Assembly (NCBI GenBank): GCA_947177175.1
Contig: CAMWTK010000001.1
Location: 1-64,000 of the forward strand
DNA length: 64,000 nucleotides
Direction of reading: 5' to 3'
From: an uncultured Treponema sp.
GTDB lineage: Bacteria > Spirochaetota > Spirochaetia > Treponematales > Treponemataceae
The stretch's first letter is position 1. Every line of letters starts with the position of its first letter. Both the position numbers and the translations under genes were made by a program. The notes beneath the pieces were generated by a model, which saw only the letters and a program-made list of their open reading frames with translations, was not told the origin of the DNA and did no database searches. Positions 8,935 to 16,011 of the stretch are shown here, piece after piece.

Positions 8935-9008
8935 GGGAGCGTACCTTCTGCGACAATATAGCACTGATTGGTGCGCAGACGCAAGCGTTTTTGTCGGACT
9001 CGTGTTAA

Positions 9009-9716
9009 TCACAATTTGATTGTTTTTATTAAATTTGACCAATCCCTATACGTCATGCATGGATACTTATCTTGATAGAAATTTTGAACAAGTTGAATTG
9101 CCTCCAAGGTATGAAGATTTCCGCCGACTAATAAGGGAGTTAACTTTCTCAATAATTCAACGTCGGTAATTTTATATAATTTATCATTAGTAGTAAGCAT
9201 TTTTGCACTGTTTTTGTTTTCAGAAAGAATTATAGGTATGCCGAAAAATATATCAATCTGCTCAAAAAACTTAACGACAGATTTTCTTTTGAATAAAACT
9301 ACCTTATCGCCATTTCTGAGATTCTTTTGCAAAAAAACATTTTCTAGCACATGGTTCTGCCAACTCTGACGCGAATAAAACGAGACGTTATCCTGCACAT
9401 TTAGCCTTTGTTTCGTAGTATAGTAATTCCAACAGACATACACATCGTTTTCTGCATCATATCCCAAAAACACAAAGGGAATGTCAGATTGCTTTATAAA
9501 ATCAAATTCTTCTCGCAGTGGCAGTTGTGCTCTGTTAATATCGGGTCTGTCTTTAAAATATGCCGATGAAATATTTTTTATATATATGAAATACTCTTTC
9601 TCTGCAAAAGAAATCTTGAAGGGCTGACATCCTGTTATGAAAGAAAAATCTTTTGAAGCGTTCATTTCATGCATAAACAGCGAAAGCAATTTATTTCCGC
9701 TAATCTTTCTGTTCAT
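9009..9716 (-). CDS. Unknown fifth component of the Z1/MORC defence operon
   Basis: A 235-aa, AT-rich gene whose start directly abuts the stop of the PD-(D/E)XK gene. I do not recognise a named domain. The N-terminal half is beta-rich, with FIYIKNISSAYFKDRPDINR, FVFLGYDAENDVYVCWNYYT and NVSFYSRQSWQ, and looks like a compact DNA- or ligand-binding fold; the C-terminal half has a helical ending (YPCMTYRDWSNLIKTIKL). Position as the last gene of a tight restriction-type operon suggests a specificity, sensor or inhibitor role, which is inference. No catalytic motif of known nucleases is evident. Confidence 0.75.
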   Translation of the reverse strand: MNRKISGNKLLSLFMHEMNASKDFSFITGCQPFKISFAEKEYFIYIKNISSAYFKDRPDINRAQLPLREEFDFIKQSDIPFVFLGYDAENDVYVCWNYYTTKQRLNVQDNVSFYSRQSWQNHVLENVFLQKNLRNGDKVVLFKRKSVVKFFEQIDIFFGIPIILSENKNSAKMLTTNDKLYKITDVELLRKLTPLLVGGNLHTLEAIQLVQNFYQDKYPCMTYRDWSNLIKTIKL

Positions 9717-10697
9717 TTACAGACTCCTGAACAAATTGCTCTTGCTCGATTCTAATGCTTCCCTCGGAATAGAAGATACGTTTGCCAAGCAGCATGAGAA
9801 TTTCACATCCGAAACTTCGGGCGGAACATCCGTATCTTTTATTTTGGGAATCGCTCTTGAATCAAAAAAGCGAAGCGTGTCTGCCGCCGCCTGATAATCA
9901 TAACAAAAATCAAATGCGTTTTCCAAATCGCTTCCCAAAGCCTTGAAAACTATGGAATCAAAGACAGTTTGAATCTGTATATCAGATATTCGAGAGAAAA
10001 TCATTGAACGCAAATCACTGATATTTTTGCCAATTCCAGTCTGAGTCGTAAATATGGAGGCAACAATAAGTCCTGAATGTTCATTCTGATTTAGCTGTTC
10101 CAAAGAAAAGGTATGGATTCTTTCCTTTTTGCCAGTGCTTTTTACTTCAATCTTGTCAGTTCCATCATTGAAATCAAACTTGCTCTCAGGACTGCAATGC
10201 CATGCCTTTATCATATATTCAGGATTCTGTGATTGCGAGATTAGGAACATTTCCGCCCATAATCCTTGAACCGTTTTTTCCGTGGGTTTTGACGCATGAC
10301 TGAACAATGCGATAATTTTATCTATTTCTTTACTTATTTGCTTTAGGGAGGGATTTTTAGGAATGTTTTGCAACAACAAATATATGACTTCAAGAAAATA
10401 GTTCTGAAAATCATAACTTTCCGAATTAAGCATTATGATGGAACACACCTTCAAGGATTCTTCGTTATCATCTCCAATCAACTTGCAATTCTTGTTAAAC
10501 AAGATAGAAATAAATTTCAGTTTCAAGTCTGCGACAACATTCTCAAATTTACAGTCAATCAGAAACATAGGCGTTCTATTTTCCGAAATACCCAAAAGAA
10601 ATTTTTTAGAGAGGCACAATTCTGTAACCGGCGTAAAGTTGTTTTTCAAAGAATGTCTATTTTGTAACTCGGAATACAGTTCGCAGATTTTATCCAT
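9717..10697 (-). CDS. PD-(D/E)XK-type nuclease protein of Z1 systems
   Basis: A 326-aa protein with a restriction-endonuclease-like core in its middle. The helix GLWAEMFLIS provides the leading Glu, and KFDFNDGTDKIEVKST carries the D...(E)xK catalytic pair, at roughly residues 145-190. This matches the PD-(D/E)XK motif proteins repeatedly found next to Z1-domain and MORC-type ATPase genes. It most likely supplies the DNA-cutting activity of the operon. The N- and C-terminal parts are unassigned. Seven bases separate it from the Z1 gene; the next gene follows with no gap. Confidence 0.8.
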   Translation of the reverse strand: MDKICELYSELQNRHSLKNNFTPVTELCLSKKFLLGISENRTPMFLIDCKFENVVADLKLKFISILFNKNCKLIGDDNEESLKVCSIIMLNSESYDFQNYFLEVIYLLLQNIPKNPSLKQISKEIDKIIALFSHASKPTEKTVQGLWAEMFLISQSQNPEYMIKAWHCSPESKFDFNDGTDKIEVKSTGKKERIHTFSLEQLNQNEHSGLIVASIFTTQTGIGKNISDLRSMIFSRISDIQIQTVFDSIVFKALGSDLENAFDFCYDYQAAADTLRFFDSRAIPKIKDTDVPPEVSDVKFSCCLANVSSIPREALESSKSNLFRSL

Positions 10698-10704
10698 AAG
10701 TAAA

Positions 10705-12903
10705 CTATCCTACATAATTAACCGCAAAATCGTCAGGATAATAAATTGCCAGCGTATAAGCCGTTTTTCCTTTCCATTTTTTGGATTCACAACTCAACTC
10801 TATATTATGTATCTGAATGCAAATTGAGTCTTCAAAACAAATTTTCATATCACCGGGATAGACATTTTTTCCGCTCGGCGAATGTCCGGAAAACAAATAT
10901 GTGCTTAACCTTTCCGTGTTTGTGTCAAATGCTCGTTTTCTCGGTTCGCTTTTGTAAGCCATTTGAATTATATACGCAAATTTCAACGGATTCCCGTTTT
11001 CCAATGAAGAAAGATATTTTAAATATCGCACTGTAGCCTGTTTGCGTGCGGCATCGGGCATGTTCTGACATCTAAAATCAGAAAGAAACTGAATTACTTC
11101 GTCAATATCCAATTTCAAGTAACGATGGTCTCTGTCGTCTGTGCCGAATTTTTTATATAATTTGAAATCGTCTTCATGTTTAGAAAAAAGAGTATCAACT
11201 GTGTTTTTATTCCCTTCAATACTGTTTGTCTGAAAAGCATTCATCTTTCTCCAACCGTTCAGTTTGTTGATGACGACTTCCTTTGTAAGAATATTCCTGC
11301 GCGTCGCATTTAGTGATGGACTTGTCAAAAGCAAGTGCTCCACATTCTCAAGACTGTCATTTCCTTTAAGCCATTTGCGCATTTCTTCTTCATGGTCAAC
11401 ATATTCCGTATACTCCTGCCGCACATCGCGCGGCAAAAACACCCTGCATGACAAAAGGTATTTTTGCTTGTAGCCAAAGAATCGACACCGCTGCTGAATA
11501 GTGTCGGCATTTGATTTTCCGATTGTGTATCGTGGCATATATGTGGTAGCAAGATTCTCAACTGTAAAACCTCGGTTCAGCATATCTGCACCAACAAGAA
11601 TATGAGAAGAATAATCATTCCATGGAATTTCTTTGTTTTCCCCATTTTTCTTGTTTCTGCTTATGATCAGCTCAATATTTGTGTCTTTTATTATATCTGG
11701 AATAAAAGACGCGATGTCAGAAAAAACTGGATATTCTATATTTTTCGCTTTGTATTCTTGTATTGCCATTGGATATGTGTTTTCAAAATCTGAGAGTAAC
11801 TCTCTGAAAGCAATGTCATTCTTATCCAAATTAAAAGTAGTTATCCAGCCGTTTATTATATTTGACACCCAATTATGAAATTTCTCGCTTGCATCCTGTT
11901 CTTTGTCTGCATGAACCATCATTGAAAGAAATTTCTCATCCTCTTTGTATTGCACGACAACAGCAACTGAAAGAATATGAAGTTGCAGCGCGGTTATAAG
12001 GGTTTTTGGTGGCTGTGAAAGATTATTGCGCTTTGAATGATATGTTTCTTCTTTTGGGATTTCAATTATAAGACCAGGATTTTCCTTAAAAAATGTTTTT
12101 CCGCCTGTGTATGATTTTCCGGGCGTTAAGACAGTATGGTGTTTCGGAGAGAGCAAATCCATTATACTGATAAGGAGAGGTCCTTGCGGAGTCGCTGTAT
12201 ACTGGATATAAGAATGGTTTGGCAAAGAACTTCTTAATTCTGTGATTCGTCTATAAGTTGTTGTATATTCATCATCTTCCCACTCTTCGGACTTGCTGTT
12301 TTTGTACGCATATCCGTTAAGGCTTGCCTGGTCTGCCTCATCATCAATTATCATTACGCCGTCATTTTTTAATACATTTTTCATTCTTGAAGTACCGAAC
12401 ATATCTGAGATGTCTTTGATATGTTGATGCTGTTTTAAAACCGTTATTAAAACTGTAGGATTGGTGCTCATCTGTAACTCATTTGCAATTCTGTCCAAAT
12501 CCTCTAACTTTGGATTCTGGTGAAGTTTATACCACTTACGATTATTTCCTTCGTTTATCAGGTCTTTTCTTAGGCGCTTTGTTGTTTGTTCGAGGAGATT
12601 ATTTTTGTTTCCCGCAAAATAAATGATGATTCTGTAACCGCTGTCGCTCGCAAGTGCTGAAAGAGCGGTAAAAGACATTGTTTTTCCGCTCTGAACATAA
12701 CCAACAACAAGACTGGTAACAGATTGCGGTTTACCTGATTTTGGATCTGCACAATTTGATAGAATAGAAATGGTTTCGTTTTTGGAAGTCTCCAATTCTT
12801 CCGCAGAAAGTTTAGTGAAACGGCTGTATAATTCAGTTGCTCTTTCACCAAAAACAGGCGTGAAAGAATCTGGCTTGTTTTCTTTTTGAATCCGCACTTC
12901 CAT
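10705..12903 (-). CDS. Z1-domain SF2 helicase-like ATPase
   Basis: A 732-aa superfamily II-type NTPase. Walker A is GYVQSGKT near residue 68, the DEAD-like Walker B is IIDDEAD near residue 190, and motif III-like SYIQYTATPQ follows. The C-terminal RecA-like domain carries the Z1 signature GADMLNRGFTVENLATTYMPR and the arginine-finger region DTIQQRCRFFGYK. In the analysis of prokaryotic MORC ATPases by Iyer, Abhiman and Aravind, Z1 proteins are the motor partners of MORC ATPases, methylases and PD-(D/E)XK nucleases in restriction-like operons. Two bases separate it from the GHKL gene. Confidence 0.88.
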   Translation of the reverse strand: MEVRIQKENKPDSFTPVFGERATELYSRFTKLSAEELETSKNETISILSNCADPKSGKPQSVTSLVVGYVQSGKTMSFTALSALASDSGYRIIIYFAGNKNNLLEQTTKRLRKDLINEGNNRKWYKLHQNPKLEDLDRIANELQMSTNPTVLITVLKQHQHIKDISDMFGTSRMKNVLKNDGVMIIDDEADQASLNGYAYKNSKSEEWEDDEYTTTYRRITELRSSLPNHSYIQYTATPQGPLLISIMDLLSPKHHTVLTPGKSYTGGKTFFKENPGLIIEIPKEETYHSKRNNLSQPPKTLITALQLHILSVAVVVQYKEDEKFLSMMVHADKEQDASEKFHNWVSNIINGWITTFNLDKNDIAFRELLSDFENTYPMAIQEYKAKNIEYPVFSDIASFIPDIIKDTNIELIISRNKKNGENKEIPWNDYSSHILVGADMLNRGFTVENLATTYMPRYTIGKSNADTIQQRCRFFGYKQKYLLSCRVFLPRDVRQEYTEYVDHEEEMRKWLKGNDSLENVEHLLLTSPSLNATRRNILTKEVVINKLNGWRKMNAFQTNSIEGNKNTVDTLFSKHEDDFKLYKKFGTDDRDHRYLKLDIDEVIQFLSDFRCQNMPDAARKQATVRYLKYLSSLENGNPLKFAYIIQMAYKSEPRKRAFDTNTERLSTYLFSGHSPSGKNVYPGDMKICFEDSICIQIHNIELSCESKKWKGKTAYTLAIYYPDDFAVNYVG

Positions 12904-12905
12904 GG

Positions 12906-14420
12906 TCAGTCATTCTCCAAAATATACTGATTGAACAAATTCCTGACATTTCCCACATTAGTAGTTCCGCTATCAGGCGCTTTTATCTCTGCTTTTGCAA
13001 AAGCCATAAGAATTCTTATGACAGGCTCATAGTCTTTGTCTTTCTTAAACTGCGGATAACAATCAAAAAAAGAATGATTTAAGTTAATCTTACATACAAA
13101 CACATCTTCTTCTTTCCGCACAGAATACAAGGCCATGCTTTCTGTATCGGTAATCAGCTCATATTTTAATTCACATTCTTTGCTTCCAATTAAAATAGGT
13201 TCTGTATATGTTTCCGCAGGTTTTGAATTATTGATTAACTCCTCGTTCTTTTTTATTGCGGCAACATTATTGATTTTCAATTCTTCCTGCTCAATTTTTT
13301 CCTTTTTGAACAAGGCGGAGGTATTTTTCTTCTCAAAGGTTTCTTTTATCTCCTGCGCTATCTCTTCTTTTTTCACACGGCTTCGCTGTCGATACCCGTC
13401 TGCCTGCAAAAAGATATTTGGTTCATTTTTTCTTATTTCATCGCGGATATCTTCAAGAAGTGCCTGCAAATCATCTTCAGCTTTGAAACTGTTTTTATTG
13501 AATGTAACCTCAAATCCATCCAATTCAAGTTCGCCAAACAAGCGTTTATATTTAAATGTACCGACAGATCCAAAAATGCAGGTTGGAAAATAATGCTCGT
13601 CACCACCCCCTACAATAACACGTCCACGTCGGAGCAAGACAAGTCCGTTCGCGCCCTGTTGAATCTCATCTAAAATGGCGATAAAACCGTTTGCCTTGTA
13701 TTTCCCCGCATTAAAATGAATTTCTTTTTTCCATAAGATACTTCCGCCGTCAGGGTTTTTATAAAATGGCGCGTTTAATATTTTATAATTCGGAGCAGTA
13801 AGTTTTTCTTCATTCACAAAAATTTCAATTTCATCATTTCGGAGATAATAACGATAGATACTCGACAAATGTTTTTTCACCCTTTCCAAAGAATTTGGCT
13901 TAGGTGCATTTTTTGAGAGATTTGTAAGTATAATTTTTGTATAATGCTCCTTTTGAGATTTTGTCTTTTCAGTTATAGCCAGCACCTCTTTTTCTTCTTC
14001 AACGACTTTGTTCAAATCAAACGAAAGAATTCTTTCCTTGCTTTCACCTAGGGCTTTTGTCGTTATTGTCCAATTATCGGCAAGCCAAACGGAGGCCGTC
14101 TTCATACCCATTCCGTACTCATTAAGTCCCGCCCTGTTCTCGGGAATATTCGCCGGCTCAAATGCGCGCAAATAATTTTTCTCGTTTATGCCAGCCGCAT
14201 TATCAACTATGGTCAGAGTTTTCTGTTCCCAGTCCATTGTTATTCGGATGCAAAGTTTGTAATCAGGCTCATAAGATTGTAAGAGATTTTTATTATCAAA
14301 ATAATTCTGAACTGCATTATCAACATATTCGCCAAGCGTATTCGAAAGCGTATTGGACAAATCCCTGAATGTGGTGTATACATTCGGTTTCAACGCGATT
14401 GAAACTTGTTTTATTTCCAT
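12906..14420 (-). CDS. MORC-type GHKL ATPase of a restriction system
   Basis: A 504-aa protein with an N-terminal GHKL (Hsp90/MutL-type) ATP-binding domain. The N-box is LGEYVDNAVQ near residue 30, the G1 box is IVDNAAGI near 72 and the G2 box is NEYGMGMKTAS near 100. An S5-like second domain follows, then a charged coiled-coil region (about 340-400) and a small C-terminal domain. This is the layout of bacterial MORC proteins, thought to clamp or remodel DNA in an ATP-dependent way. Start and stop overlap the methyltransferase stop by one base (TAATG), so the genes are translationally coupled. Confidence 0.88.
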   Translation of the reverse strand: MEIKQVSIALKPNVYTTFRDLSNTLSNTLGEYVDNAVQNYFDNKNLLQSYEPDYKLCIRITMDWEQKTLTIVDNAAGINEKNYLRAFEPANIPENRAGLNEYGMGMKTASVWLADNWTITTKALGESKERILSFDLNKVVEEEKEVLAITEKTKSQKEHYTKIILTNLSKNAPKPNSLERVKKHLSSIYRYYLRNDEIEIFVNEEKLTAPNYKILNAPFYKNPDGGSILWKKEIHFNAGKYKANGFIAILDEIQQGANGLVLLRRGRVIVGGGDEHYFPTCIFGSVGTFKYKRLFGELELDGFEVTFNKNSFKAEDDLQALLEDIRDEIRKNEPNIFLQADGYRQRSRVKKEEIAQEIKETFEKKNTSALFKKEKIEQEELKINNVAAIKKNEELINNSKPAETYTEPILIGSKECELKYELITDTESMALYSVRKEEDVFVCKINLNHSFFDCYPQFKKDKDYEPVIRILMAFAKAEIKAPDSGTTNVGNVRNLFNQYILEND

Positions 14421-15766
14421 TACTCTATCTCCAGCAGTCTTTCCGCGATTCGTCTTACGACTTCGACATTAATCGCGTTTCCAAAAGCCCGAAACGCTTC
14501 CGCCACAGTATCAGGATAGTACTCCAAATCACCCATGCATTGTAACTTAGCAGCCTCTTTGCTTGTCATGTATCGTCCTTTTTCACCATTAGGAGTTTCT
14601 ACCCACGGGAATATTGGAATTTGGGTTGTTGTTAATACAAGAGCGGGAGAGTATGTCGGCAATTTTACGCGAATCCCAGAAGGCCTGAATTGTACTATTT
14701 TGTCATACAATGTATGTTTTACCCCCTTGTCATGACCGCAATTCCATTCAAATTTTTGGTGGCTGTTTTTGAAGCCATGTTGCTTCAACTTCTCCAGCCA
14801 TGGATCTAATATCTGCTTATGTGCCTGATAAAATTCCCTGTTCCACTTTATGAAATTTTTTTTCCAGTCAGGAAAATTATGATTTTTTTCAGTTTTATTA
14901 GTTTGCGCATATATTGGAAGGCAACCAAGCAAATCATCCTTCGAATTTCCTTGAACATGACAACCAAATTTTCCTTTTTTCCCTTCAAGTGATTTTGTAT
15001 GCTGATAGAATGGCGCGACAGTCTCATACTTATAATCCGCCCCCCATTCCATAGCCCATACAGGAAAAGTTGGAATGGGAATGTCGTGCGCTGTCAATAA
15101 ATCAAGAAATTCTTGCCATACTTGCATATGTATTCTCGTTTGAGGTTTCAATGTCATATAAACGGTATCATTTTTGTCTATAATATCTTCAATACTACAT
15201 TTTGTACTTTTTTTATACGGGGGAAAAGAAAAGCCCCTCAGCCCACCTTTATCTATCAGCCGCCCTACAATATAAATTCTTGTACGGTGCTGTGGAATTC
15301 CAAAATAATGAGGAGATATAATTTCATCACGTATATCATACAGTTCTGAAAGTTGTGCTGAAATAACTTTATAGGTATTTCCCCCATCGTGTGATTTTAA
15401 ATTGGGAACATTTTCAATGAAAACATACTCAGGCTTACATTTTTTCAATATTTCCATAATTTTATAAAACAGGTTTCCTCTTTCTTTATCATCATCGAAT
15501 CCCTGCTGTTTCCCTGCCTTTGAAAACGGCTGGCAGGGAAACCCCGCACATAAAACCTGCGGCTGATATGGCAATATATCTTTTTCTATGTCTACTTTAT
15601 TTATATCGCCGGCACATTTCATTTTAAAATTTTTCTCATAGAATTGTTGCAGTTCCGGTTTTATTTCGCTTGCAAACACACATCTGCCGCCAAGCTTTTT
15701 CATTGCAAGATGAAAACCGCCTATTCCAGCAAATAAGTCTATAAATGTAAAAGATTTATCTCCCAT
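14420..15766 (-). CDS. DNA (cytosine-5) methyltransferase
   Basis: A 448-aa C5 methyltransferase. It shows motif I DLFAGIGGFHLAMKK, catalytic motif IV GFPCQPFSKAG (Cys near residue 79), motif VI ENVPNL, motif VIII QHRTRIY, a target-recognition region between about residues 190 and 370, and motifs IX/X ending in GNAINVEVVRRIAERL. It would mark host DNA and protect it from the nuclease encoded downstream. It is the promoter-proximal gene of the five-gene operon, so the protective activity would be made first. Base composition is far more AT-rich than in flanking genes, a sign of horizontal transfer. The recognition sequence cannot be read. Confidence 0.93.
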   Translation of the reverse strand: MGDKSFTFIDLFAGIGGFHLAMKKLGGRCVFASEIKPELQQFYEKNFKMKCAGDINKVDIEKDILPYQPQVLCAGFPCQPFSKAGKQQGFDDDKERGNLFYKIMEILKKCKPEYVFIENVPNLKSHDGGNTYKVISAQLSELYDIRDEIISPHYFGIPQHRTRIYIVGRLIDKGGLRGFSFPPYKKSTKCSIEDIIDKNDTVYMTLKPQTRIHMQVWQEFLDLLTAHDIPIPTFPVWAMEWGADYKYETVAPFYQHTKSLEGKKGKFGCHVQGNSKDDLLGCLPIYAQTNKTEKNHNFPDWKKNFIKWNREFYQAHKQILDPWLEKLKQHGFKNSHQKFEWNCGHDKGVKHTLYDKIVQFRPSGIRVKLPTYSPALVLTTTQIPIFPWVETPNGEKGRYMTSKEAAKLQCMGDLEYYPDTVAEAFRAFGNAINVEVVRRIAERLLEIE

Positions 15767-15786
15767 AGTTTATAAAACACCGAGAT

Positions 15787-15816
15787 ATTATACCATAGGA
15801 CTATCCTTCCTGTAAA
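15787..15816 (-). promoter_or_regulatory. Promoter of the defence operon
   Basis: Minus-strand TTTACA, an 18-bp spacer, TATAAT. The predicted start is near 15780, leaving a 14-base leader before the methyltransferase ATG, which lacks a clear ribosome site. The 45-bp inverted-repeat array begins about 20 bp upstream, in position to bind a regulator. Confidence 0.6.
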
Positions 15817-15837
15817 CCTCCCATCGCATACCATATC

Positions 15838-16011
15838 CCATCAAGCCCCCTGCGTCCGTCCGTCTTGACGGACGCGCCCATTTATCAAGACAACGGTTTC
15901 CGTTTGTCTTGATGAACGAACCATATCCATCAAGATGAATGCATCCTGTTTGTCTTGATGAACATACCGCGTTTATCAAGACAAATGTATCTATTTTATC
16001 AAGATAAAAGT
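15838..16011. repeat. 45-bp tandem array of TTATCAAGACAA / TTGTCTTGAT inverted repeats
   Basis: ATCAAG recurs at about 15840, 15884, 15929 and 15975, and its complement (CTTGAT or the variant CTTGAC) at about 15863, 15908 and 15954. Each 44-46 bp unit is therefore an inverted repeat. The best is ATCAAGACAACGG with CCGTTTGTCTTGAT. The last half-site pair is TTTATCAAGACAA and TTTTATCAAGATAA, in direct orientation. GTTTGTCTTGATGAAC occurs twice. The array separates the AT-rich defence operon from the HU gene's terminator. Confidence 0.8.

Follow-up and report, generated by a model that had tools for sequence, protein, structure and literature searches.

A five-gene operon in an uncultured Treponema sp. 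makes it possible to ask which subunit of MORC-containing restriction-modification systems reads the DNA. The window analysed here, a stretch of 64,000 nucleotides, carries on its minus strand, in operon order, genes for a Dcm C5-methylase, a MORC GHKL ATPase, a Z1 SF2 motor, a DUF4420 PD-(D/E)XK nuclease and, last, a protein of 235 aa (9009..9716) with an MTaX1 domain. PADLOC and NCBIfam return no match for this last protein and place its gene in no defence system, although Pfam has the domain. In the reading that we favour, with a probability a little under 0.6, MTaX1 would be a non-catalytic subunit that recognises the DNA target or its methylation state while docked on a DUF4420/Z1/MORC complex.

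The 235-aa reading frame is a real gene and a conserved fifth subunit of the operon. It runs from its ATG at 9716 to 9009 on the minus strand, and the contact of stop and start by which the earlier note had seen it locked to the nuclease gene is confirmed, as the stop codon of DUF4420 directly adjoins the MTaX1 start (TAA|ATG at 9719-9714). The same two genes abut in L008 and L010; the overlap is 1 base in L009 and 4 bases in L013, and in L070 a gap of 6 bases lies between them. Across the four Treponema copies the gene is under strong purifying selection, with a pN of ~0.2-0.3 against a pS of ~0.72-0.81 that is itself near saturation. Since the three Treponema relatives are 57-67% identical to the window protein and pN lies far below pS, the reading frame is more than a product of chance.

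The product, previously left unassigned as having no recognisable motif, is identified by hmmscan against Pfam as MTaX1 (PF20296; E 5.4e-24; 85.3 bits against a cut-off of 25), with positions 1-110 of the 111-position profile aligned to residues 40-150 (9267..9599, minus strand), which form the domain core. The surmise of a conserved domain was correct, and both stretches highlighted in its support, residues 51-62 and 110-120, lie within the match; in six homologues P58, D59 and R62 of the first stretch and V111, S112, Y114, S115, R116 and Q120 of the second are invariant. In an alignment of 13 diverse MTaX1 members, R62 and G85 are invariant and Q64 nearly so, and the conserved feature of the family is R62-x-Q64 on the strand at 60-65, plus G85. 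MTaX1 denotes a "methylase-associated" X1 domain, for which Aravind and colleagues suggested modified-DNA discrimination (PMC10853773). Both the domain and the operon type have already been described, and the role of the domain is a published suggestion. The window protein shares with the published family a profile match above the cut-off and a methylase partner in the operon, a Dcm heading the operon here and likewise in L008-L010 and L070. However, the published forms are fusions with a nuclease or occur within ABC-ATPase/DndE systems (PMC10853773), whereas the window's is a stand-alone protein with its own C-terminal tail inside a five-gene MORC/Z1 system. Overall, gene identity and operon membership are near certain.

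Membership of a Z1/MORC/PD-(D/E)XK operon, as earlier proposed, is supported by Pfam matches and gene order, and the catalytic motifs of all four partners examined are intact. The Dcm-type C5-cytosine DNA methyltransferase (448 aa, 14420..15766, minus strand; PF00145 2.2e-65) has the motifs PCQP, ENV and QHRTR, and the prokaryotic MORC (GHKL+S5) ATPase (504 aa, 12906..14420, minus strand; PF13589 1.1e-13) has EYVDN, DNAAGI, GMGMKTAS and GLVLLRRGRVI. The Z1-domain SF2 helicase/ATPase (732 aa, 10705..12903, minus strand; PF10593 4.6e-31) has the Walker A motif GYVQSGKT, DDEAD and DTIQQRCRFFG, and the DUF4420 nuclease (326 aa, 9717..10697, minus strand; PF14390 8.8e-32) has the catalytic motif DFNDGTDKIEVK. 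By its G+C profile the operon sits in a low-GC island of 35-40% G+C (9000..16000), with 58-64% on the MetRS side and ~60% from 17,000 on, which fits the expectation for a horizontally acquired defence island. It is most likely a horizontally acquired, DNA-methylation-based, restriction-modification-like system of phage defence. A promoter-like site with an extended -10 just upstream of Dcm (15787..15816, minus strand; 11 of 12 consensus bases) is suggestive only, because the totals for the region are no higher than in shuffles. A 17-pair inverted repeat (TTTGTCTTGAT...ATCAAGACAAA) lies at 15947-15987, just upstream of the operon and near the edge of the island.

PF20296 is rare, occurring in 5 of 393 genomes of the window's phylum and 8 of 200 of its genus, and in 5 of 396 genomes of the phylum and 2 of 380 of the family of L013, a Capnocytophaga canis locus. 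Six stand-alone genes of ~234-242 aa (the window, L008, L009, L010, L013 and L070) come from four Treponema and two Flavobacteriaceae, and hence from two phyla, and MTaX1 is the last gene, directly after DUF4420, in all six. The complete Dcm/MORC/Z1/DUF4420/MTaX1 operon is present in five of them, including L070 from Flavobacteriaceae (58/43/54/40/43% identity to the window). In C. canis the operon is decayed (L013, 4064-10693): a three-gene pAgo (Piwi) cassette stands where most of Dcm, the whole of MORC and the greater part of Z1 would be, an apparent replacement that leaves a truncated Dcm on one side and a Z1 stub of 128 aa on the other, while DUF4420 and MTaX1 downstream are intact. The homologues do not lie mostly outside defence operons, an outcome that would have spoken against the earlier note; nearly all of the ~23 MTaX1 loci inspected have restriction-modification contexts, in a homologue sample that leaves out Bacillota and Pseudomonadota chromosomes. 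Direct search with the window protein found no relatives in viral contigs, plasmids or phages, viral scans with the MTaX1 proteins of L029 and L019 gave no matches, and a plasmid search with that of L022 found nothing. As a separate observation, the same three neighbour genes (HTH, 233-aa and ~255-aa; L009:1136-3233 and L049:14359-16462) border two different Z1 systems in two Treponema genomes, which suggests a shared integration hot spot.

Elsewhere MTaX1 is fused N-terminal to an effector module. The partner is HNH_2 in L028, L031, L065 and L066, GmrSD_N in L029, a McrB-like AAA_5 domain in L019, where an LlaJI-type endonuclease gene adjoins, and, by visible motif only (DFDIFFPKANYYGDLK, VELDFRGRRLTVECK), a PD-(D/E)XK-like region in L011, L020, L021 and L022. 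The neighbouring methylases are of the C5 kind in L011, L021, L022 and L063 and amino-methylases in L028-L030, L060, L061 and L065, while the MTaX1 of L064 is set among DUF499/DUF1156 genes. MTaX1 is strongly tied to restriction-modification with methylases of differing chemistry and, given that the partner may be a C5 methylase or an amino-methylase, it is not simply a reader of 5mC. Several fused loci are two-gene sets of a methylase and an MTaX1-nuclease, in which MTaX1 is the sole evident candidate for target recognition. Pairs of amino-methylase and MTaX1-HNH genes are also seen on viral or prophage contigs of IMG/VR (L065-L067), with a Zot-like neighbour in L065. In L062 and L074 an MTaX1-GmrSD-like gene lies ~2 kb from a convergent Z1, ATP-binding and dcm cluster; on the Hymenobacter plasmid (L074:15534-20211) this cluster is convergent with the MTaX1-GmrSD-like gene and a HEPN gene, so that MTaX1 and Z1 are arranged differently there.

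An AlphaFold2 model of the window protein built from six sequences, including phage-borne MTaX1-HNH relatives, has a pLDDT of 82.4 and a pTM of 0.65. It predicts an alpha/beta core of helix 7-18, strands 24-28, 33-37, 40-48 and 60-65 and helix 70-76, further strands and helices up to 158, a disordered linker at 162-180 and a helical tail at 186-231. Taken together with sequence comparison, the C-terminal helical tail spans residues 183-235 (9012..9170, minus strand), with the disordered linker at ~162-180 before it; only the stand-alone proteins conserve it, and the fused members yield no significant match to it. In the mechanism that we propose, the core with its conserved R-x-Q strand would bind DNA and discriminate sites or methylation state, and the tail would dock MTaX1 on the DUF4420/Z1/MORC complex. 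Recognition in turn would permit Z1 and MORC to carry out ATP-driven movement or clamping and DUF4420 to cut, with host DNA spared through Dcm methylation. This proposal is moderately supported by the PF20296 match and the constant place after DUF4420, by the fused forms, which hold MTaX1 where a recognition domain would be expected, by a well-modelled core that has no catalytic motif, and by a tail that is conserved only where a fused nuclease is missing. The published idea of modified-DNA discrimination (PMC10853773) and, by analogy, the separate DNA-binding B3 domain of CglI/NgoAVII (PMC4267653) point the same way.

The related operons of the genus bear on this from both sides. Z1 is found in 16 of 196 genomes. 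Of these loci 13 have the MORC/Z1/DUF4420 make-up, MTaX1 being present in four and absent from nine; the 13 include L057, whose Dcm end is lost at a contig edge. In the trees of MORC, Z1 and DUF4420 the MTaX1-bearing operons fall on one side of a branch with support of 99-100, so that one change accounts for them, whereas in the Dcm tree they are not grouped (three changes, with 220 of 500 shuffles as low). MTaX1 thus travels with the effector core, which argues that it belongs to the effector complex, while Dcms move between cores. L054 has a Dcm with 83% identity to that of the window, although its MORC, Z1 and DUF4420 reach only 16-26%. More broadly, the part of Dcm that contains the target-recognition region (206-390) is, in six MTaX1-less operons, 68-84% identical to its counterpart in the window, on very diverged cores (16-29% identity), and the site of that methylase is therefore evidently readable without MTaX1. 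The nine loci without MTaX1, these six among them, weigh against the recognition model, and given that sister systems with a similar Dcm work without it, MTaX1 may be an added discriminator and not the sole reader. The sensor or specificity factor envisaged in the earlier note is made plausible by the domain fusions and weakened as a general account by these sister operons; nothing supports the immunity factor offered as its alternative, and a toxin/antitoxin role was likewise considered and rejected.

What follows DUF4420 in the nine MTaX1-less loci is varied: an AspBHI_N + Mrr_cat protein in L058, an AAA/nSTAND3-like protein in L051, L056 and L059, and no evident further operon gene in L052-L055, with L057 reaching the contig end. 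We raise tentatively the possibility that the operon ends in an exchangeable slot, filled like a cartridge by an MTaX1, AspBHI-like/Mrr or AAA/STAND-like protein or left empty, that sets the DNA state attacked, with Dcm independently exchanged among deeply diverged cores. If so, MTaX1 would represent a new type of discrimination subunit, one that stands alone and docks; no description of the stand-alone form or of a variable last slot was found in the accessible literature text. Two Treponema loci, L055 and L056, look like a natural swap of the methylase on a shared effector core, as their MORC and Z1 proteins are 97% and 93% identical, the DNA of MORC and of the N-terminal half of Z1 is for the most part 97-100% identical, and their Dcm target regions are unrelated. 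The two loci diverge as well in DUF4420 and at the C-terminus of Z1, and an additional AAA gene is present in L056; this swap is a lead and not proof, as are Dcm exchange and MTaX1 co-inheritance in general, which come from few cases. The idea that DUF4420 divergence tracks Dcm type was set aside as unsupported: L051 and L056 have the same Dcm type, but the L051 DUF4420 is equally close to the L055 protein. The occurrence of very similar Dcms beside effector cores that are unrelated, and with last genes that differ, amounts to a natural swap experiment for the DNA-reading question, and stand-alone MTaX1 as the constant fifth gene of one MORC/Z1 clade provides a testable list of subunits.

The same slot invites a type IV-like reading, in which MTaX1 reads a phage modification and recruits Z1 and DUF4420, the core dealing with unmethylated DNA on its own. 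MTaX1 is optional on cores sharing a similar Dcm, the AspBHI_N + Mrr_cat protein of L058 matches modification-dependent restriction enzymes, and in one case MTaX1 is joined to a McrB-like AAA domain. We nonetheless regard this reading as unlikely, since most MTaX1 fusions stand in two-gene methylase and nuclease sets that resemble ordinary restriction-modification pairs, where cleavage must depend on a missing methyl mark. It is also rather improbable that MTaX1 is a structural or regulatory subunit (an assembly scaffold, brake or immunity factor) making no contact with DNA. Such a role would agree with the strict co-inheritance of MTaX1 and the effector core, with the close coupling to the nuclease gene, with the tail specific to stand-alone members and with the dispensability of MTaX1 in sister clades, but the MTaX1 core is common to fused effectors of unrelated folds (HNH, GmrSD_N, AAA), so that a scaffold or inhibitor specific to DUF4420 makes little sense.

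Fold searches bear on whether MTaX1 could itself be an enzyme. Foldseek against the PDB gave no match to the model at E<=0.001, the best being SPARDA effector chains (E 0.003-0.02, TM ~0.3), followed by Hjc-/RecU-type resolvases. A first model from three sequences gave a similar list, ThaI included, and is not relied on alone because it is poor (pLDDT 61.8). One structure match in a viral library passes 0.001 (3.3e-4) but has a TM of 0.22 and concerns an uncharacterised protein. No PDB sequence relatives of MTaX1, DUF4420 or the Z1 protein were found, and the fold and PDB sequence searches recognised no DNA-binding fold in MTaX1 with significance, which likewise weighs against the recognition model. 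The weak matches, being PD-(D/E)XK-like nucleic-acid enzymes, hint at a PD-(D/E)XK-like scaffold for the core, and a known enzymatic fold unrelated to DNA, which the earlier note had named as contrary evidence, did not emerge. A second, divergent PD-(D/E)XK-like nuclease is very improbable, for although both models weakly resemble such proteins (E 0.003-0.4) and the order of strands and helices is compatible, the similarity stays below significance, the fused members have a separate nuclease, and no catalytic D...(D/E)xK on the adjacent strands expected is conserved in the 13-member alignment; an active nuclease identity was rejected.

The recognition model, finally, can be set against systems already known. 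Iyer, Abhiman and Aravind (2008; PMC2292703) defined a third type of MORC operon with MORC, an SF2 helicase with DThhQXuRhFG, a D-ExK REase and a C5 methylase, and, going by the accessible part of that paper, all four components are present in the window. The MORC S5 motif GLVLLRRGRVI fits the type-3 GhXhhpXXRhl, DTIQQRCRFFG at 467 of the Z1 protein deviates from the type-3 motif at one position, and these two matches assign the operon to that type; DUF4420 is the additional REase-fold gene with D-ExK, and MTaX1 is extra relative to the type as that part of the text describes it. The window also has the Z1, PD-(D/E)XK and C5 methylase core of a putative defence system (PMC9523054) in which MORC is associated with type II, AIPR occurs in both type II subtypes and MTaX1 goes unmentioned in the section covered; unlike those subtypes, none of the window's five proteins is an AIPR by Pfam. 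The Z1 and PD-(D/E)XK components are distantly related to MzaC and MzaD of MZA (mzaABCDE), and membership of that system was rejected, the scores (126 of 1500 bits for MzaC, 29.7 of 420 for MzaD) being far below the curated cut-offs and AIPR missing. With CglI/NgoAVII (PMC4267653) the window has in common a C5 methylase, a Z1/DEAD motor and a separate nuclease, but its nuclease is DUF4420 and not PLD-B3, no PLD or B3 domain is matched by Pfam in the operon, and MORC and MTaX1 are extra. Biochemical evidence on CglI/NgoAVII shows the site to be bound by the B3 domain of the nuclease and not by the Z1 motor protein, and the Z1-containing motor to be stimulated by the nuclease (PMC4267653); by analogy, MTaX1 could play the part of that B3 domain.
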